Of a stretch of 64,000 bases of DNA, positions 1 through 20,582 are shown in pieces. The notes beneath the pieces were generated by a model. That model saw only the letters and a program-made list of their open reading frames with translations, made no database searches and was not told the DNA's origin. This DNA comes from Eurosta solidaginis (taxonomy: Eukaryota; Arthropoda; Insecta; Diptera; Tephritidae), in assembly GCF_040869045.1 (NCBI RefSeq), contig NC_090319.1, positions 343,770,302 through 343,834,301 of the forward strand, given 5' to 3'. Both the position numbers and the translations under genes were made by a program. Position 1 is the first letter of the stretch, and the number at the start of each line of letters is the position of its first letter.

Positions 1-1
1 T

Positions 2-190
2 GGTTGTCGGGCCACAGTTGTAACATCGAAGCTACACGATGATGTATCGGCTATACGAGTCACCGGCGCACCACATACACACGAACAAGAAATAAAAACA
101 GACAACCTTGTAGAATTAACACCGGATTTCATTGATGAACCTAAAGAAAGCTTCTTACGAATGGTGACATTGTTGAATGATCTTAAATAA
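2..190 (+). CDS. mod(mdg4): Terminal exon, C-terminal half of a FLYWCH zinc finger (mod(mdg4)-like), 5' partial
   Basis: The frame starting at base 2 is open from the window edge to TAA at 188-190, about 62 codons. It begins GCRATVVTS and continues to APHTHEQ, which is the second half of a FLYWCH finger: the third Cys in a C-R-A-x-V context, then the closing H-x-H. An acidic C-terminal tail ending LLNDLK follows. The first two Cys and the Y/W-x-C core must lie upstream of the window. FLYWCH fingers of this length at the very C-terminus are the hallmark of alternative 3' exons of the BTB chromatin/insulator gene mod(mdg4), where they provide isoform-specific protein contacts. The assignment to that gene is inferred from this exon plus the neighbouring finger exons. 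The common BTB part is not in the window. Confidence 0.6.
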   Translation, partial: GCRATVVTSKLHDDVSAIRVTGAPHTHEQEIKTDNLVELTPDFIDEPKESFLRMVTLLNDLK

Positions 191-393
191 GAATAAAGAA
201 CATGCAATATTGTATCTAAACATACAGGCTAATTTCTTTTAGTTGAATTTAGTAAACAAAAAAAAAATAATTATAAAAAGAAACAAATAAAATGTAGGGT
301 TTAGTTTGTTACTTTACTTTTTACGCTTATACTTTTTGAAAACTACATTAACTAATTCTCTGCCGTTTTTCATTTTCATTTAAATATTTGCAG

Positions 394-989
394 CTAAAAG
401 GACAACGGCATTGCCAAAAATCTTGGATGGCAAATACTATAACAACGTTCAACCAAATCGTAATACTATCGGTGGCATACAAGCTACATGTACCACGTGT
501 TTGGGCACCATATCCGGCACCACCAAGTCTACAGGCAATTTTCTTAGTCATATAAAACGTCGTCACAAGCAAATATTAAAAGCGTGTCAGTGGTATTGTC
601 AAACAAAAGTTCCACCGGCAAAGTTTACTGGCATATCAACAAGCGGTAGCATCGCTGATGCTACTTGTGGTGTGAGTCATAAACAATTGTCCGTATATCC
701 ATACAATGAAAATGCAAAGCAATTTCCTAAAAAAGAATTGCATAGTCATCATCATGACCAGTTCCATGCATCAATACCACCACCTGTACAACCGCTGCCG
801 CCGCCACCACCACATAATCGTAACATTCACGAACAATATGTAACAGCCGCATCTACTATATGGCCAACATCTTTGGCCGAAGCTTCAACAAATTGTATTA
901 ACGCGTCAACAGGTGGCATGCTTTATAGAAAAACAAAGGGTGACCAGGGGAGCGACCAACCGAATGGCCGTTTAATAAATAAAAAATAA
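394..989 (+). CDS. Alternative terminal exon encoding a BED-like zinc finger and a low-complexity tail
   Basis: A good acceptor (pyrimidine-rich tract, then CAG at 391-393) opens the frame with two bases (CT) completing a split codon; the frame then runs to TAA at 987-989, about 198 residues. Near the start is CTTC, and after about 23 residues comes HIKRRH, a Cys2-His2 pattern spaced like a BED finger, a DNA-binding fold also used by hAT transposases. The middle has a His-rich stretch and a PPPPPP run, and the end is basic. No ATG lies at the start, so it is read as a splice-in exon rather than a separate gene. AATAAATAAA overlaps the 3' end at 974-983 and another AATAAA lies near 1037. The acceptor phase equals that of the two minus-strand finger exons at 5477 and 6423. 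Membership of the mod(mdg4)-like locus is inferred; a standalone BED protein is the alternative. Confidence 0.5.
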
Positions 990-1146
990 AAGTAAATGGC
1001 AGCGTTCCGAAAACATAAAAAAACCAAAAGTTTCATAATAAACTTATTCGGTGTCAATGGTAAGAATGCAAGTTTATTTTAAGCTTTTGTATCGTAAATG
1101 AAGTAGGGCAATTAGCACGTTTCAGAAGTAGAATTTAGTAACTTTT

Positions 1147-1257
1147 AGATATATATAAAAATCAAATTCTGTGTGTGCTCGCTATGGAAACGTATTTCCC
1201 ACACTTCAAGCATCACCAAATTTTGGCTATAGGTTCCTTCGATCAACACGAAGGTTT
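1147..1257 (+). repeat. Copy of a Helitron-type 5' end
   Basis: About 110 bases starting ATATATATAAAAATCAAATT and ending in the GAAGG of 'CACGAAGGTTT' repeat almost base for base at 1739-1852. The AT run followed by AAAATCAAATT and a GTGTG block resembles the 5' end of insect Helitrons. No coding sequence follows directly. Confidence 0.5.
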
Positions 1258-1720
1258 CAGGCTAAAAATAATTTCGATATATAAAAGGGGTGTGGCACTT
1301 CCCATTCAAATGTAATCTTTGTTACTGCATAACTCTGAAGGTATACAAGTCATAACATTAAAATTCAGTAAGGAGTTATATGAGGTCAATCCCTAACACC
1401 ACCAAGAAAATGTGGAATTAGGAAAAAGGGGGCGTGGCACCTGCCATACAAATGGAATATTCATACTGCATATCTCTGGATGTAATAATGGTAGGATAAT
1501 GAAAACTGGTAAGGAGCTATATGACGTTAAGTCATAACACGCCCTTGGGAAAAAAGGGGCGTGACCGCTTCCCTACAAATGGGATTTTTCAGAACTATAG
1601 CTGCCGTACAAACTTAGGTTATTTTAACACCTAAAGTTTGACTGCATTGTTGAGTTTGGATGTTATTCCTTTTGGATGTTTAGTAATCTGCCGCCGTTAA
1701 AAAAATTTGTTAGCTTCAGT
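1258..1720. repeat. Non-coding dispersed repeat with GGCGTGG motifs
   Basis: No gene is visible. GGGGTGTGGCACTTCCC, GGGGGCGTGGCACCTGCC and GGGGCGTGACCGCTTCCC recur about every 130 bases, each followed by CATAACTCTG-like text. The same style of sequence recurs at 2690-2990 and 55670-56110. It looks like the interior of an old dispersed element of unknown class. Confidence 0.45.
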
Positions 1721-1728
1721 CTATCTAT

Positions 1729-2343
1729 ATCTACATATATATATATTTATAAAAATCAAATTATGTGTGTGTGTTCCCTATGGAAACGTATTTCCCACAC
1801 TTCAATCATCACCAAATTTCGGCTTTAGGTTCCTTCAATCAAGACGAAGGTTTTTCATATTTCAGAATTAAGAATTTTAAATTTAATTTTTTTTGCTAGC
1901 TCCCAAAAATGATCATGTTAACAAAATCAACGATCGCATTCAAAAGCAAATTCCTGGTACCATTCAATTTTAAGCACTTACAATTTCATGTACGCCTCGC
2001 TTTTCCACTTACAATGAACAAAGCACAAGGACAATCGCTTACTGTTGCAGGATTAAATTTAGAGAGTCCATGCTTTTCTCATGGGCCATGACCAGTTATA
2101 TGTTGCTTGCTCTAGAGTTGGAACGCCAAAAAATTTGTTTATCTTTGCACCGAACGAAAAAACCAAAAATATTGTGTACCCACATGCATTACAATAAGAT
2201 ACAATAATAAAATGTTTTAAACGAAAATTTCACCAAATATGCGTACAAAATTCAACTCAATTTACAGAACAATAAACTAAACAGAAAAATAACGCAACAT
2301 TCATTCGATATCGGGCGGTACAACGTATGCCGGGTAAAGCTAG
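1729..2343 (+). mobile_element. Degenerate Helitron remnant
   Basis: The left part (about 1729-1852) carries the 5'-end-like block that also occurs at 1147-1257. The middle holds the last ~95 codons of a Pif1-like helicase. The right side ends in a G/C-rich stem-like stretch and CGGGTAAAGCTAG at 2331-2343, consistent with the CTAG-type 3' terminus of rolling-circle Helitrons. Helitrons insert without target duplication, and none is seen. Most of the Rep/helicase body is missing, so this copy is non-autonomous. Confidence 0.6.
1909..2197 (+). pseudogene. Helitron Pif1-like helicase, C-terminal fragment, frameshifted
   Basis: From 1909 the translation contains VRLAFPLTMNKAQGQSL and AGLNLESPCFSHG, the conserved C-terminal helicase motif of Helitron RepHel proteins in the SF1/Pif1 family. 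Near 2085 the frame shifts; the next frame resumes with DQLYVACSRVGTPKNL and continues to VYPHALQ before TAA at 2195-2197. Residue order across the shift is right, so it is one decayed gene end. The upstream Walker motifs and Rep domain are absent. Confidence 0.75.
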
Positions 2344-2974
2344 TATGTATAACATAAATCTAGTTCTGGGTATACTTTTTCAGTTTGGTCGCCGAACAAA
2401 CTTCTGCCAATACTTTATGTGAGGTGATTAAACCAGATTTCTCCATGCAACCACCCTATTATTAATTGTATGGGCTATATTTTATTGGCCTTTTTGGCAT
2501 ATAAATACAACTTTTTAAACGCTCCAATTTATAAGGAGCTGTCGTTATTTGCCCATAAGAATACTACAGAAATCCTTACCATATTAATCTAATTGAAATA
2601 CGTGAATACCGTAAATATAACTGAAATAAATGAAGTCGAGTTGTGGCTCCAGAAACGTTGGGAAATGCATTGTAAGAAAGGGGCAGTGTAACGCCCATTT
2701 TTAAAGATATGATTTTTTTCCCAGGAATTTTATAATGGCACAAAATACGATTCGTACAAAACTATTTTTCGCTAAGATTTAACTTATTATTTTTGCCTAC
2801 GACCCTTTTAAAAATCTTTTATATAAAAGTGGGCGTGGTCTTTAACCGATCTCGTCCATTTTTTCTAGAAATATTTCCTGCTATAGGGAAAATTTGTGTA
2901 CCCAATTTTATTACCGTTAATTTTTCTTCGAGTTATGGCTCCCGAAACTTAGAAAATTGCTTAGTCATAAAAGG
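2344..2974. repeat. Unassigned AT-rich DNA, ending in a dispersed repeat shared with 56008-56100
   Basis: No gene is visible. Bases 2890-2982 (GTGTACCCAATTTTATTACC, then CTTCGAGTTATGGCTCCCG and GTCATAAAAGGGGC) match the reverse complement of 56008-56100 closely, so one dispersed element is present in both places in opposite orientation. AGTGGGCGTGGTC at about 2827 is the same motif family as at 1260-1720. Confidence 0.5.
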
Positions 2975-2975
2975 G

Positions 2976-3336
2976 GCGGTAGGTATGCCTGTGTAAGAGG
3001 CGACTAAAATACCAAATAGATTCAAGAGGTTGTGCAGCGCAACCCTTTCAAGGGGTTGCCAGCGCAATATATAGCTTCTCCAAACCCAATTGTCAACCTC
3101 ACCTATCCGTGGCGAATCATGTTTCATTAACAACCGAGTCTGGGGACCCGGAACTCCTCATGGGTCTAGGGGGTGGGATGGCGGTATGGCCTAGAAGGTC
3201 GAATGTGGTCATATCACATCATTCCCGAGATGGTCGGGCTTGGTACCGGATCTGCATCCGGTGAAGAACCATCAACATCGATAACCCTCTCCAAGACCTT
3301 CGGGGAGTGTCCTTATCGCTACAACTACAACAAAAA
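2976..3336 (+). mobile_element. SINE-like retroposon family 1, 5'-truncated copy
   Basis: It begins at GGTAGGTATGCCTG and runs through GAGGCGACTAAAATACC, GCTTCTCCAAACCCAATTG, CCCGAGATGGTCGGGCTTGG and CGGGGAGTGTCCTTATCGC into a (CAA)-type tail. The same unit is found at 3894-4292, 4526-4729, 52264-52682 and, reversed, 56355-56769. It is non-coding and about 400 bp when full length. The first ~45 bases of the family are missing here. Similar length, shared 3' end and dispersed copies argue for a SINE; an RNA polymerase III promoter is not clearly recognisable. Confidence 0.7.
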
Positions 3337-3893
3337 CATCGAATCCTTTCCAAACCTTATTATAAACAAGAATAAAGATATGTGGGATATGTCATTCGCC
3401 ATGGTGATGGTAGCATGCTCCGCCTACCACACCGAAGCTCTTAGGTTCTTCAACTCCCGGGCAAAGTAACATCAAAAATTTGTTCAATTAGAATACAGTT
3501 TTTCTAAGCGGGGTAGCAGTGATTTGGCACCAACTCCGAGTGTTTTGCTGCCGTGAAGAGCTTATCAGTAAAATTTCATCTGCCTTGCAGATGCCGTCCG
3601 GAGTCGGCATAACACATGTAGGTCCCGTCACTCTAGTTCGTAGGGAAACGTAAAAAGGAGCACGGCACAAGCCGGAATAGAAGCTCGGCCTAAATCTCTT
3701 TGGAAGTAAATCGCGCAAAGTATGTATTTCGCATGTCGATACATGTGTGTAGCATACCAAACTAGATCAATATTTATGCTAGAATAAATCCGAAAAATTA
3801 GCATCGAATTTCATAACATGCTTCAAGATTTTCAACGCAATTTCAGGCTCGTAATAAAAAAATTTAAAGTCACTAATGCTACCAGGGAGCATA
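3337..3893. other. Unassigned stretch between two SINE copies
   Basis: No recognised gene. A minus-strand open frame of 90 codons (3488-3760) contains a Cys-rich segment and ends QITATPLRKTVF, but matches no domain I know. The sequence has the look of transposon untranslated DNA. The stretch separates two direct copies of the family-1 SINE. Confidence 0.35.
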
Positions 3894-4292
3894 CCCACAG
3901 CGGGTTAGGGGGTTAGAATATACCCGCGGTAGGTATGGCTGTCGTAAGAGGCGACTAAAATACCGGATTCAAGGGGTTTGTGTAGCGCAGCCCTTTCAGG
4001 TTGCCAGCGCAAAACATAGCTTCTCCAAACCCAATTGTCAACCTCGCCTACCAGTGGCGAATCCTGTTTCATTAACAGCCGAGGCTTGGCGACCCTGAAC
4101 TCCTCATGGATCTAGGAGGTGGGATGGCCTAGAAGGTCGCATGTGGTCATAAGAAATCGTTCCCGAGATGGTCGGGCTTGGTAGCGGAACGTACCGGATC
4201 TGCGTCCGGCAAAGGACCATCAACTCAATAACACTCCCCAAGACCTACGGGGAGTGTCCTTATCGCTACAACAACAACAACAAACAGGGACC
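3894..4292 (+). mobile_element. SINE-like retroposon family 1, near full-length copy
   Basis: It starts at the family 5' end (CAGCGGGTTAGGGGGTTAG, then AATATACCCGCGG) and finishes CTACAACAACAACAACAA. CAGGGA occurs just before the start and again just after the tail, a possible short target duplication. It keeps all internal blocks of the family, with point differences from the 2976 and 52264 copies. Confidence 0.75.
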
Positions 4293-4525
4293 ATAGAAAA
4301 CAAATCAAATGGTATTGTACAAAATGATGGAAAAGATTGAAAATTTGATGGCATTCTTGTGAAACATTTTAGAATTGATATGGACATTAGTCAGACTGGT
4401 TTTCGTACTTCGAATGTCGGACTTTTGAATGAATACGACGTCACCAAATTAAACGATTCAGCATAATAAAATATATACAAATATCTATTCTTGTGTCAAA
4501 ATAAATGATAGATACAAAACAGATT
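4293..4525. other. Short AT-rich spacer between SINE copies
   Basis: Nothing recognisable. It is AT-rich sequence without a convincing coding frame. Confidence 0.3.
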
Positions 4526-4729
4526 TAAAAACTCCCGTGAGGGGGTCTGAATATACCCGCGGTAGGTATGCCTGTTGTAAATCGTCCCCGAGATGGTCGG
4601 GCTAGCACCTTAATGGTGCTGTGTTACCGGAGCGTACCGGATCTGTATCCGGCAAAGGACCATCACATCGATAACACTCCCCAAAGCCTTCGGGGGGTAA
4701 CCATATCGGTACAACAACAACAACAGCTT
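4526..4729 (+). mobile_element. SINE-like retroposon family 1, internally deleted copy
   Basis: The 5' end (GAGGGGGTCTGAATATACCC) and the 3' half (CCCGAGATGGTCGGGCTAGC to ACAACAACAACAAC) are joined directly after CCTGTTGTAAATCGTC. About 200 bases of the middle are missing compared with the copies at 3894 and 52264. It could be a short subfamily or a single deletion. Confidence 0.7.
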
Positions 4730-5062
4730 TTAAAACTTATAAAAGTATTGCCTGAATAACAAAACAATTTAAATATTAAGGATTCGCTTTTGCTTTGATT
4801 GAGTATGAGTTTGCAAAAACGATATCGTCTTTCTTCTTTTTGTTAAGAAAACTGTCATCTGAACTCTGGTTTGTTTATAGTCTTGAATTTTCATAACTTA
4901 TTGGTTTATAAAAAAATATGGTTTTCTCTGATGGCTTGCAACAAATAGTTACTGATTATCGAAGTTAGTAAAAATGTGACCACATTAAAACTTCTAGGCC
5001 AAACCAGGAACTATTAAAGTAAAATTTAAAATTCTCTTTGTTGAAATGTATAATAAATTGAT
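4730..5062. other. Spacer 3' of the minus-strand FLYWCH exon
   Basis: AT-rich, with no gene or repeat recognised. It should hold the 3' untranslated region and polyadenylation site of the minus-strand exon ending at 5063. No canonical AATAAA stands out on the minus strand just after the stop. Confidence 0.3.
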
Positions 5063-5477
5063 TTAAACAGGATCTGTTGGCTCGCATTGTAATTTACCAA
5101 CATTTTGACCTATTGAACTGAATTTTTTGTAAATTAACAAACCAGCATGTCGCGCCACAGCAATACGCTGACCGTCTCCATTATGATTGTGAACATCTTG
5201 AAATAAAAAGAAAAACGTAAATCCATTAATTACAAAACTATAAGATAATATAAATGTATCTTACCATTCGTTACGTATAGATCATCACCGATAGTCTTTA
5301 ATCGACTACGACATTTTTTGGAACGGTTATGTATACATTCCCAATACACCTTGTCAGAGTTTCTACCATAACGCTTTAAATTTGAGCGATATATAAAATC
5401 GTTAATCGCTAGCAGCGTACCACCCTTACGGCTGATAATAAATAATTGTGGGCCACAATTTCGCACATGCTGCATAA
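5063..5477 (-). CDS. mod(mdg4): Antisense terminal exon pair encoding a complete FLYWCH zinc finger (mod(mdg4)-like)
   Basis: On the minus strand an acceptor (TTCTTACAG) ends at 5478, and the exon opens with two bases (TT) of a split codon. The first part reads MQHVRNCGPQLFIISRKGG, then DFIYRSN, VYWEC, KCRSRL and LYVTN: the F-L-Y-W-C portion of a FLYWCH finger. It stops at a GTAAGA donor (exon end 5265). A 68-base intron (5264-5197) ends TTTTTATTTCAAG, and the second exon begins in phase with VHNHNGDG, supplying the two closing His; translation ends at TAA 5065-5063. So the finger is complete only when spliced. The strand is opposite to the finger exons at 1-989, while the acceptor phase is the same. 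Function inferred: isoform-specific C-terminus of a BTB-FLYWCH chromatin protein. Confidence 0.72.
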
Positions 5478-5761
5478 CTGTAAGAACATTTTGTGAAAAG
5501 CATATTTATCATAAATTATGCAACAATAATTACATACATAGATACTGCTGTAAAAGTAACAAATATCCTGAATTTAAATTTTTTTTCATGATTATTATTG
5601 AAAAAAAAAGAAACATAAATAGTACTACAGTTTTATTCACGACTCTTTTGTTAAAGGCACTATATGATCATTCAATTCACATATTTAATTATTGATAAAA
5701 ACAGGATTTGTTTTAAGCTAATTTAATTCAATTTCCACATATAATAGTGTTTAATAGAATA
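5478..5761. other. Spacer between the two antisense finger exons
   Basis: AT-rich. It contains the acceptor region of the exon at 5477 and the 3' flank of the exon ending at 5762, where the minus strand has ATTAAA near 5750 as a possible polyadenylation signal. No other gene is seen. Confidence 0.4.
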
Positions 5762-6423
5762 CTATTTATTTTTGCCTAAAAGCGCTTTCTGTAAGCGTCT
5801 TTTAATTTTTTCACGAAAATCATGTGTGTCTGCTACACTTGCTCCATCCTCCGTCTCAATTTGATCTACCGTATATTCTTGTAAATCATTTATTTCCGCA
5901 GCAGATTCTGACACTTGTACCTCATACTCATCAATTACAGTTTCTTCATCTATATCATCAGCCGGCTCAAACACTACAGATGTTACACTTTTATCTGTAG
6001 CTTGCATGAAATGTATATGATCTCCATCCAAAGGATAAACACGCTTTTGATCACATACAACACGAACCTTGCATTCTTGCATATTTTCCTTAAAACAACA
6101 TTGGAATATTGAGTATTGTCCACGTCGAAATATAAAACGGAAATGATGGCTTTCATATATGAGCTTCATACCACCTTTTGTTGTTGAAGCGTATATTACT
6201 GGTTCGCCGGGTCCATTTTGTAAGGCCAACAAGATTTTGTCAATCAATTTTTTATCATCCTTCTTCGGGAGCTTAGGGCGTGGACCACGTTTGCGTGGTA
6301 CTTCAAGTTTTGCCTGCTCGTTCTTGGTAGTTGCTTCAATCTGGCTACCACTGGCTTGTGGCTCATTATAAGCTGGAGAAGCATGAAGTAGTCCCCCTGG
6401 TGACTGCCCGGAACTTGTCGTTG
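5762..6423 (-). CDS. mod(mdg4): Antisense terminal exon encoding a basic linker and a divergent FLYWCH finger (mod(mdg4)-like)
   Basis: A minus-strand acceptor (GTACTTTTGCAG) ends at 6424. The exon starts with two bases (CA) of a split codon and stays open for about 219 codons to TAA at 5764-5762. Order: Ser/Gly/Pro-rich start; a basic proline-containing patch (VPRKRGPRPKLPKKDDKK) like an AT-hook or NLS; then a FLYWCH-type module with TTKGGMKLI, FRFIFRRGQY, FQCC, CKVRVVC and DHIHFM; then an acidic tail. The usual YW-x-C is IFQCC, so the finger is diverged although the metal ligands are present. There is no ATG near the front, as expected for an exon spliced to upstream coding sequence. It lies upstream, on the same strand, of the 5063-5477 exon pair. 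Confidence 0.7.
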
Positions 6424-6750
6424 CTGCAAAAGTACAGACCAGTTTTAGTTTTAAACGTATATATTTTGCTGATAAACAAATAGTACAAAATGGAAATAAA
6501 ACAACAGAAATCGCAATTGTGAGAAAAATATAAGTTTATTTATTTTAATGAGAAATGGTTGAAAATATGTGCAAAGATGATGTTTGTGCTTGTATCACGC
6601 GTCATACGTAATCGAATATTATTGCACATCCTTAAGAAATTTCAACCACTTAGCCGCTGTTTATATACAAATACTTTTGTTGCTCAAACTCGTTACTTAC
6701 AAGAAAAGCAGACGCGTATCGAGTTTATTATGCTCGGGGACTTGCTTCTA
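6424..6750. other. Spacer upstream of the antisense exon
   Basis: It contains the acceptor and branch region of the exon starting at 6423, then AT-rich DNA with no recognised gene. Short plus-strand frames here lack codon structure or domain similarity. Confidence 0.35.
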
Positions 6751-14304: not shown

Positions 14305-15197
14305 TTATAAACAATAATTCCACTGCCAGGGCAAAGAAACATTTGGTAATAAAAAATAATTGCTTAAATAGTGTCGTAAGTTTTGTGGGTCAGAATTTTC
14401 CATTATGTTTACATTATCGAACTCTGGCAGAGTACTTGGGTTCCGTTGAACTGGTTGCTGGTTTTCGATATCGGGAAGGAAGGTCGTGTATGATATGCCA
14501 TCTTTTTTCCTTATAAAGTTATGTAGGATACAAGCACTTTGTATAATTGAAATTATTGTTTCGTACTTTTGGCATCGTATAGGTGTTGAGAAAACTCCAA
14601 ATTTGTTTACCATCATCCCGAAACTGCACTCTATGTTCTTCCTACCGCGACTTAGTCTATAATTAAATATGCGCATCTTGTTGGCAATGTTTCTTTCCGG
14701 ATAAGGCCGCATAACATTTTTCCTTAAAGGAAAGGCGTTATCTGCTACGAAATAATATGGCAACTTATTTCCACTGTCGTCATGCGGTAGTTCCTTTGGG
14801 GATGGTAAATTATTGTAACTTTCTAACCAACGTCCAAACGTCGAAATTTTAAAAACTCCCCCGTCGCTATTTCGTCCTGCAAATACGCATCGCAACAGGC
14901 AAGTAATATTACTGAATGGTAGTTTTTGTAATTGAAATTAGCTGAGCTCCAATTTGGATATTTTTGAATTCGCACATGCTTTCCGTCGATAGCTCCTAAG
15001 CATTTGGCAGCTGCCATAGATCAGAGAACCGTCCCGCAATACTCTTCCAACGCTCCTCATTTGGCAACGTCATATAACAATCTTTTAATGAATTCCATAT
15101 AGCTTTTGTTGTTTCTTCAACAATTACTCCGATTGTACATTCTCCTCTTTGAAAATATAAAGCAAGCGCATTGAACGTGCATCCTGTAGCCAGATAC
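14305..15197 (-). pseudogene. HARBI1-like Harbinger transposase, catalytic part, two frameshifts
   Basis: Minus-strand exon opening at an acceptor (TTTTTGTTTAG, exon from 15197) with YLATGCTFNALALYF. Then CLGAIDGKH holds the first catalytic Asp, [11 protein letters not shown] the second Asp, and [15 protein letters not shown] the Glu, so the DDE triad is present in order. The reading frame changes near 15005 and again near 14885, where a few residues between CDAYL and GRNSDGG are lost. Last residues LPWQWNYCL, stop at 14305. DDE_Tnp_4 nucleases cut at TIRs and duplicate TTA/TAA. This copy cannot make an intact enzyme. Its N-terminal exon is displaced to 17621-17878. Confidence 0.8.
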
Positions 15198-16174: not shown

Positions 16175-17620
16175 GAATACAGCAATTGTGTAGGTCAGGG
16201 AAACAGACTCTTAGTCCCTACCTCCCTTTGCACCGTTTGCCAGCACAGAATATATACGTTTCCGACATCCGCCAAATGCAGCTCCTGCCATGGACGGTGC
16301 CACTTTCCTAGATGTTCTGGTGTCCGCGACGATCTGCACTGCAGACGTTTTTTGGGTATAATGTCCACAGAAAAGATAGTGAGAGCGGAAATGGAGGCGG
16401 CCTCGAGTTTATCATACACCACTCTGTGCAATATCATATATTTGATCCCGGTATCGACCGCAGGGACAGTGTTTTAGAACGTCAAGGCTTATTTGTCCGG
16501 TCAGGCGATGCAAACCTAGAAATCATCAACATCTATATCCCTCCTGCCACCTGTTGGCCCAGTAGATACCGCCCTAATATCAGCGACTTACTCACTGGCA
16601 ACAATCGCATTATCTTATGCGATTTCAATGCCCATCACGATCTATAGCGTTCAAACTTGCGGGCGGACAGTAGGGGTGAGATGTTGGTGGATCAAATAGA
16701 AGAAACGACGTTCTGCACAATAAACGGAGACGCCCCCACACGTATAGTAGGAAGCTGTCTCAGTTCGTCGGACATATCAATCGTGAGCGCAGGACTAGTA
16801 AACTGCGTCAACTTGCAGCCGATGGTAACATTGGCATCCGACCACCTGCCTATACTTATTTCGCTCGAGCGTTCAGCTGACTTCATCGTCACAGAAAAAC
16901 GCACTTTCATTAACTTTAAAAAAGGAAAGTGGGACGAATACAAATCCTTTACAGACAACCGCTTTGTTGCCCTCCTTATCCCGACTGATGCCCGCCTCGG
17001 CTCGTTTAACTCCCGCCGGTAGAATTCCCGAAATTCGGCCCCACTTCCCGGCGGAGGCCGCAAGTTTAGCGAGAGAACGTGACCTTATAAGACAGCTCGA
17101 TCCCGGCGACCCCCAATTAAGGAATATAAACCAACTCATCAGATTGCTTGTGGATGAACACAAGCGGGCGAAATGGGAGGAGCATTTAAGCGGTTGTAAC
17201 CTCTCTGCCGTTGTAGGTAAACTTTAGTCCACCGTAAAGTTCCTATCGAATCCGTCTAGGCACAATGACAAAGTTTCCATCGCCTTTGGTGATAAAGTGC
17301 TGTCGGATGCGAAAAAATGCGCGAGCGCTTTCTGCCGACAATATATAATGCATTCTACGGTCGACAAGTATAGACGGAGAGCCAACAGACACGCACATAA
17401 ACATAAATTCAGCGCGCCACCAATTACCATCACCGCCAAAAAGGTTGGCGATGCCATCGGTCATGCTAAACCATCCAAAGCAGTGGGCTCAGATGGCATA
17501 GGCATGCCGATGCTTAAAAGCCTAGGGAAAGAGGGTTTTAAATATTTAGTGCATGTCTTCAACCTGTCTCTTTCCACCTTTGTCATACCCGAAAAATGGA
17601 AAATGGCCAACGTGGTCCCG
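16175..17620 (+). mobile_element. CAA-tailed LINE fragment (endonuclease to early RT), inverted relative to the neighbouring fragment
   Basis: The plus strand reproduces the 5' part of the minus-strand LINE at 59071-62714: ACTCTTAGTCCCTACC, the apurinic endonuclease segments GYNVHRKD, IIHHSVQYHIFDPGIDRRD and NIYIPPATCW, DFNAHHDL, SDHLPILISLE, then RT lead-in HKRAKWEEHL and KAVGSDGIGMPML. It stops abruptly after AACGTGGTCCCG at 17620, where Harbinger sequence resumes. A block of the early endonuclease region is missing near 16330, and stops interrupt the frame (e.g. 16646, 17226). Together with 15360-16085 it looks like one LINE insertion with an inverted 5' part. Confidence 0.7.
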
Positions 17621-19614: not shown

Positions 19615-20505
19615 TCAAAAACCAGGACCTATGTTATAAAATAACTCCGTCCTCTTGGCAAATACTAGAAGCTTCCTAGGACTTAAGCCACTTGCTGCTT
19701 CTAGATCTGACAGCTGTATCACTCCTAATAGCTGTAGTCTTAGCCTGGCAAGTGCAGGGCACGAGCACAGAACGTGCTCGATCGTTTCCTCCTCCAACCC
19801 GCACTTCCTACATCTGCTATCACTGACCAAGCCTAATTTAAAGGCATGTGACGCCAGAAGGCAGAGTCCAGTCAGAATACCCGTCATGAGTCTACAGTCC
19901 TCTCTTTTTAATGATAGAAGCAACTGTGTTAGTCTAAGGTTGTAAGATCTACACATAATCTTCGACACTTTACAGGCCCGCGCTTGAACCCACGCCTTTC
20001 CCGTTTGGTCGATCATGCGCACCTCTCGCCTTCCCTTAATCTCGACCAATCTAATTGGGACGTCTACGGAGCAAGCTTCAAGGGATGCGTCCTTTTTAAC
20101 TAGTTCGTCTGCTTTTTCATTCCCATCTATTCCCATATGCCCTGGGACCCAATATAGATGTATGCTTCTCCCTGTCCCGATTCTCTCCAGAGACTGCTTA
20201 CACTCTAACACGCGTTTAGATGCTGTGCTATGCGAGATTATTGCCTTAATTGCTGCTTGACTGTCAATATAAAAGTTAGCACGGTTGCAGCTTAAGCTAT
20301 TCTCATCCAGGGTTTCTAGTGCCTTGGTTATGGCTAATATTTCCGCTTGGAAAATTCTACAGTAATCCGGCAGCCTGTAGGATCTGCTTATTTCCAGATC
20401 AGCGTAGTATACCGCAGACCCTACTCCTTCCACTACTTTGGAACCATCGGTGTACACATGTATCGCCTCGTCCGCCATTTGCGCACTCTTGCGCCAATTG
20501 TCCAC
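19615..20505 (-). pseudogene. LOA-type LINE RNase H domain and C-terminal zinc-binding tail
   Basis: Begins in the linker (DNWRKSAQMADEAI). RNase HI motifs are all present: VYTDGSK (Asp), FQAEILAI (Glu), NFYIDSQAA (Asp) and GNEKADELVKK (Asp), with WVPGHMGIDGN as the basic loop. A Cys/His segment CRKCGLEEETIEHVLCSC follows, typical of LINE C-termini. RNase H removes template RNA during target-primed reverse transcription. This domain is intact for about 296 codons but separated from the RT by a stop at about 20583. Confidence 0.8.
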
Positions 20506-20582
20506 CTCTATTGTGGCCTTAAGATCTCCCTCGAAGCGCAGATAGGGAATCAGGTAGTCTGTTCTTCATGTGATTGATGACG

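Follow-up and report, generated by a model that had tools for sequence, protein, structure and literature searches.

A candidate mod(mdg4) locus of Eurosta solidaginis with terminal exons on both strands and predicted trans-splicing

The DNA described here, called the window, is a stretch of 64,000 nucleotides of the tephritid fly Eurosta solidaginis (genome 343770302-343834301, forward strand of contig NC_090319.1, here C1, of a 1.9 Gb genome). Its left end carries finger-coding terminal exons on both strands and, judged from its sequence, the window very probably forms part of a mod(mdg4) locus in which the tails AB, E, 59.0 and T would be carried on separate RNAs and joined in trans to a common BTB-coding part. 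The mod(mdg4) gene of Drosophila melanogaster is trans-spliced and yields more than 30 isoforms. Positions of up to five digits are those of the window, and longer ones those of the contig.

Terminal exons in the window

All four open stretches that an earlier note on this DNA had read as FLYWCH-finger terminal exons are present on the strands it gave, with details changed for three of them (2-190, 394-989 and 5063-5477). The first lies on the plus strand at 1-190 (stop codon 188-190, with an AATAAA a few bases beyond it) and codes for a FLYWCH finger as proposed, but it is only the 3' portion of the terminal exon of isoform AB; the acceptor of that exon lies 157 bp ahead of the window start, at genome 343770145. 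The isoform E terminal exon (394-989, plus strand) opens at an intron phase 1 acceptor (..TTTGCAG/CTAAAAGG at 393/394) and codes for a BED-like finger; the FLYWCH label did not hold here, as Pfam gives only a sub-threshold BED match (E 0.0032, 17.9 bits vs a cut-off of 20.6), and a relative (P0052) is named pre-mod(mdg4)-E.

Both minus-strand tails are FLYWCH as claimed, with 45.9 and 49.6 bits vs a cut-off of 23.6 (far beyond chance). For the isoform 59.0 tail, proposed as a single exon at 5063-5477, the coding and the finger stand but the continuity does not: a 68-nt GT-AG intron (5197-5264, minus strand, GTAAGA...TTTCAAG) separates a first coding exon (5265-5477, minus strand), which has an intron phase 1 acceptor (..TTCTTACAG/TTATGCAG at 5478/5477), from a second (5063-5196, minus strand) that includes the stop codon and is defined by splice sites and translation. 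Joining the two completes the HNH end of the FLYWCH finger. A phase-0 AG eight bases past this acceptor scores equally, and the second codon of the tail is ATG. The isoform T terminal exon (5762-6423, minus strand) has the open frame described for it and an intron phase 1 acceptor (..TTTTGCAG/CAACGACA at 6424/6423) that ranks third by score, both better-scored sites likewise being phase 1. The acceptors named beforehand at 393/394, 5478/5477 and 6424/6423 were all located, each in phase 1.

Common BTB exons and the FLYWCH cluster

The search of the flanking genome for a BTB exon, suggested by the earlier note as a check, found one 213-221 kb to the left of where the window starts, on the plus strand. 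The donor has three coding exons, all on the plus strand: two BTB exons at 343549386-343549599 and 343549658-343549797 (match from 343549654), 90% identical to Drosophila, and the last common exon at 343556228-343557065 (match 343556234-343557064, 55% identical). The match to the BTB domain of Mod(mdg4), on the same chromosome as the tails, is 91% over residues 1-70 and again over 72-118. The donor ends in ..GACGCACAAG/GTTTGT, in phase 1, leaving the single G of a split codon.

The 5' splice site (GTTTGT, 343557066) is far from the usual GTAAGT, and from its tenth base the donor intron reads ATACTTAC (L043), which we take to resemble the start of the U1 small nuclear RNA. Gao is said to have described, in 2015, a U1-binding motif in the last mod(mdg4) donor intron. 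Over the first 335 intron nucleotides the best match to CAGGTAAGTAT is 8 of 11 bases. A structured terminator is also reported from the last mod(mdg4) donor intron (PMC11727487).

FLYWCH matches were surveyed by a six-frame genome scan that scored 150 of its 262 candidates; the counts are therefore lower bounds. At least 146 matches are listed genome-wide, at least 29 of them within 348 kb (343.62-343.97 Mb), and the four finger exons, found at the window's left end, lie in the middle of this cluster. The cluster DNA read holds 30 FLYWCH stretches, 27 being fingers; it runs up to 343969702 and is interrupted at 343864302-343885301, 343895302-343901301, 343916302-343917301, 343924302-343928301, 343932302-343953668 and 343957480-343966519. 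As in mod(mdg4), several terminal exons, mostly FLYWCH, are therefore gathered in one cluster. Many of the genome's matches are scattered and some contain stop codons; a transposon origin was considered for the FLYWCH exons of the window and rejected, as they have mod(mdg4) orthologues.

Other features were seen in and around the cluster. A pair of tail exons at C1:343955131-343956009 is repeated about 12.9 kb further on at 343967982-343968842 (L007, L008, L002) by tandem duplication; the two pairs (343955131/343955768 and 343967982/343968625) are about 90% identical over 1.5 kb, and the tail set therefore seems still to be growing. Two copies of an isoform-S-like tail lacking the FLYWCH finger lie at C1:343658253 and 343675472 (plus strand), and 2.7 kb left of AB a stretch at C1:343767207-343767410 (plus strand) weakly matches Drosophila tails that are non-FLYWCH by Pfam (P0118, P0141). 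Another small cluster of FLYWCH matches is found at C1:60561463-60579500 (plus strand), with two matches in one frame of 404 amino acids. About 0.9 Mb left of the locus, at C1:342607590-342762534 (minus strand), BTB halves at 342762337 and 342696877 are followed in ordinary cis order by FLYWCH matches at 342679876, 342672737 and 342607590; this BTB is split near the same residue as that of the mod(mdg4) donor, and by its layout the region is a possible cis-spliced paralogue.

The last common exon was the only match listed in a search with the rest of the common region; about its first 66 residues are nonetheless present in donor retrocopies. At least eight intronless donor copies (L034-L041; C3:128723210, C3:119535859, C6:43398681, C2:99731054, C6:37272884, C365:67434, C6:130571311 and C1:128592907) form a dispersed repeat, 88-99% alike over 2.1-3.3 kb, and consist of a spliced 5' untranslated region (UTR), the BTB exons and the beginning of the last common exon, followed by unrelated sequence. 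Every one of the eight has a frame break close to BTB residue 97. No tail match was found within the 3.2-3.3 kb read of each copy, and the copies are therefore uninformative on trans-splicing; in one of them, three open reading frames (ORFs) were negative against Pfam at E 0.01. Apparently a mobile element picked up a piece of mod(mdg4) donor complementary DNA, and the copies suggest that the donor has an upstream 5'UTR exon.

Junction phase and orthology of the tails

Before the donor was known, every possible AG of 28 terminal exons (the 27 FLYWCH fingers and E; the FLYWCH matches at 343937840 and 343945061 lie outside the DNA read) was scored as an acceptor without regard to phase. The best-scored acceptor was in phase 1 in 26 of the 28, compared with 98/279 control ORFs from the same DNA (binomial P 2.5e-10), and in all 20 of the plus-strand exons. 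Both exceptions are on the minus strand, and in each a phase-1 AG scores equally or within 0.1 bit. The phase-1 G at the end of the donor is the phase that the acceptors had predicted, and it fits all four window exons, so that donor and acceptors share one reading-frame phase as those of mod(mdg4) do. Among relatives of the common region, the junction was recognised in 119 of the best 120 listed (of 2145; different Drosophila species contribute many nearly identical entries), and every one of the 119 continues past it with D, V, G, A or E (a GNN codon).

The four window tails are orthologous to tails of particular Drosophila Mod(mdg4) isoforms. The AB tail is 61% identical to P0156 over 103 amino acids and 54% to D. 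melanogaster AB (P0066) over 107; the E tail is 77% identical to P0122 over 66 amino acids, its relative P0052 being from D. tropicalis; and the 59.0 tail is 76% identical over its first 71 amino acids, in an alignment that starts at the junction residue. The T tail matches P0077 and P0081 ('mod2.2'), and isoform T is presumably 67.2. The 40 proteins listed as relatives of T (one of them the window's own) are all from flies where named; many are called 'modifier of mdg4', among them those of Rhagoletis, Ceratitis, Bactrocera and Anastrepha, and two are called 'pre-mod(mdg4)-T', from Glossina and D. busckii. Were the minus exons decaying, disused remnants, their frames and splice sites should not be intact as they are, nor should T be 60-70% identical to four tephritids (73-81% among themselves) with 41 alignment columns invariant across ten flies, the finger and C-terminus among them; such decay is scarcely credible. 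By these T identities the present fly probably falls just outside the group of four.

Outside the window, tails with named Drosophila orthologues are 62.3, AD, N, 60.1, AA, P, I and AC. Those orthologous to D. melanogaster tails are T, 59.0, AB, 62.3, AD, N, 60.1, P, I and AC, while the orthology of E was drawn from D. yakuba and D. tropicalis. The tails are thus one-to-one orthologues of named Drosophila isoforms with several exceptions, as no clear orthologue was found among the 119 listed tails for several, e.g. 343701034, 343750786 and 343888388.

All four tails were joined to the donor in silico without an internal stop, and the products align to D. melanogaster over nearly their whole length with 51% (T), 61% (59.0) and 57% (AB) identity; the joined E product is 57% identical to D. 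yakuba across the first 469 of 595 residues. A Teleopsis model (P0021) fuses T and then 59.0 (the 59.0 product is 56% identical to its second half over 98 amino acids), and a Glossina model fuses AB and then E, as does, by eye, one of D. gunungcola. Both pairs are therefore old.

Strand arrangement and trans-splicing

Of the 29 FLYWCH matches listed in the cluster, 21 are on the plus and eight on the minus strand. Those on the minus strand form two blocks, six matches at 343701-343751 kb and the 59.0 and T pair, with AB and E (plus strand) between them; as in trans-spliced mod(mdg4), tails thus lie opposite the donor strand. The switch of exon orientation from plus to minus that the earlier note placed inside the window falls between E and 59.0, in a repeat-rich spacer (1001-4760); of its four 1-kb bins, counted from 1001, 86, 71, 78 and 49% match other DNA that was read, and of the bins that begin at 1 and 5001, 0% (the comparison covered about 330 kb of DNA read, window included).

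The plus-strand donor cannot be part of an RNA transcribed from the minus strand, and a minus-strand donor would therefore have to lie to the right of the minus tails. In a survey that scored the 150 best BTB candidates and lists at least 87 matches, 19 of the 87 are on this chromosome, and none listed there lies right of the minus tails on the minus strand; the one match right of the cluster is 28 Mb away and on the plus strand. Since the minus tails face away from the donor and no same-strand BTB is listed upstream of them, only joining in trans gives the known proteins. The donor strand, phase and orthology support the earlier claim that the minus exons can reach the plus-strand common exon only in this way, and T and 59.0 are predicted to be trans-spliced to the plus donor.

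By this mechanism, a plus-strand donor RNA would carry the common part (three coding exons, 343549386-343557065), and separate RNAs would carry the alternative terminal exons, every tail having an acceptor and a stop of its own; these RNAs would be transcribed from the two strands of a 348 kb stretch that begins 64 kb past the donor. The spliceosome would then join the last donor exon, at its GTTTGT site, to one tail acceptor; for the minus-strand tails the donor and tail RNAs would necessarily be separate molecules. The resulting Mod(mdg4) proteins would share one BTB domain and differ in their tails. That the tails are separately transcribed and that the proteins function we infer from these features.

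The minus tails could instead be separate small FLYWCH genes, locally transcribed and translated without the BTB part. In gene models of several flies T is a separate BTB-less protein (P0003, P0005, P0006, P0012, P0014), the ATG at the second codon of 59.0 makes a local start conceivable, and acceptor RNAs of D. melanogaster are reported to have their own promoters (PMC12692577). The T frame (ORF 5762-6535), however, has no ATG before the finger, its first lying within it; the acceptor phase of the minus tails fits the donor, the tails are orthologous to BTB-carrying Drosophila isoforms, and stand-alone models would be expected from gene prediction wherever exons have no path in cis. Small separate genes are therefore very improbable.

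An assembly or local inversion artefact, with all tails really on the donor strand and spliced in cis, is less probable still. Repeats do flank the orientation switch and assemblies fail at repeats, but an artefact would have to explain two separate minus blocks with eight exons. In D. melanogaster, T is reportedly antisense as well (Labrador et al., in 2001), which fits a bidirectional promoter shared by T and K. Such a promoter is reported between these two tails (PMC12692577), so that T would be expected to point away from its neighbour on the plus strand.

Several points weigh against trans-joining at a mod(mdg4) locus. Taken alone, the minus exons have a best acceptor in phase 1 in only six of eight (P 0.026), the acceptor weights are the author's own approximations, and for T and 343930408 the acceptor supported by orthology, also in phase 1, is not the best-scored. 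No AATAAA or ATTAAA was found within 400 nt of the 59.0 stop. Seven of the 119 listed tails have no match here (parts of the cluster lie outside the DNA read). A minus-strand donor beyond the 150 scored BTB candidates may also have gone undetected.

Spacing and comparison with other insects

The locus shares with mod(mdg4) of D. melanogaster a BTB donor on one strand, FLYWCH tails on both and a phase-1 G junction, and its split of 21 plus and eight minus listed FLYWCH matches is close to the 22/9 reported for the isoforms of that species (PMC4667647). Nine opposite-strand Drosophila isoforms are reported (PMC4667647, PMC4528330), in two clusters (PMC4528330); one group reports all mod(mdg4) mRNAs of D. 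melanogaster to be trans-spliced (PMC12692577), and FlyBase curators count at least 18 (PMC4528330). The Eurosta locus differs in its size, about 419 kb from the donor start codon to the last tail read, in its repeats between exons and in the duplicated tail pair.

Mosquitoes (Anopheles gambiae, Aedes aegypti) likewise have a BTB donor and FLYWCH acceptors, with a donor-acceptor distance of 950 kb to 1.28 Mb, apparently in A. aegypti (PMC4667647), but their tails are apparently on the donor strand (PMC4667647, PMC4528330), whereas eight are not here. Lepidoptera (Danaus, Bombyx), distant relatives, have acceptors in both orientations; for Danaus, 24 acceptor genes are reported to span 550 kb, and 33 of its 40 isoforms to draw on the opposite strand (PMC4667647). 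The size of the locus therefore has precedent in Danaus and Aedes.

A lola locus was considered and rejected, as the window tails are FLYWCH or BED-like and the donor is 90% identical to Mod(mdg4). The lola tails are C2H2 fingers. Drosophila lola is alike in having a BTB donor with alternative finger tails, and trans-splicing evidence is reported for one isoform (PMC4528330). A literature search for tephritid work on mod(mdg4) trans-splicing found none among the papers listed, which is weak evidence.

The interval 5' of T (6424-64000, 57.6 kb) is laden with repeats and transposon remains and contains no FLYWCH match; no match was found between T and 343888426, among those listed in the scan or in the DNA read. 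Remains of a DDE transposase, presumably of PIF/Harbinger type, lie at 14305-14937 (minus strand), a weak match, below threshold, to a LINE endonuclease at 16312-16647 (plus strand) and an RNase H as in LINEs at 19615-20565 (minus strand). Past T, the next mapped tail is the plus-strand one at genome 343888388, a gap of 112 kb that may be unusual for a fly. The locus is about 15 times the size of the Drosophila gene. In D. melanogaster, T and K have the bidirectional promoter between them (PMC12692577), whereas T and the next plus tail here are 112 kb apart; tentatively, and with rather more doubt than confidence, repeats may have stretched the locus and broken a promoter pair of the T/K type, with T still trans-joined to a donor 220 kb off. 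This reading assumes that the plus-strand neighbour is the K orthologue (no tail is listed under the D. melanogaster name K) and that T is still expressed. If it is true, a shared promoter between back-to-back tails would not be needed for trans-splicing in higher flies.

Mod(mdg4)-67.2 is reported to be the isoform recruited by the insulator protein Su(Hw) (PMC5666082). Trans-spliced mod(mdg4) is already known in Diptera and Lepidoptera, and the present work maps a predicted case of this rare trick in another fly. With T opposite the donor strand in a fly outside Drosophila, the both-strand layout of higher flies is not a Drosophila peculiarity. By sequence comparison, tail order, strand and phase appear to be kept while the DNA between has filled with repeats, and such conserved tails with repeat-filled spacers offer a natural test of the distances and shared promoters that trans-splicing needs.

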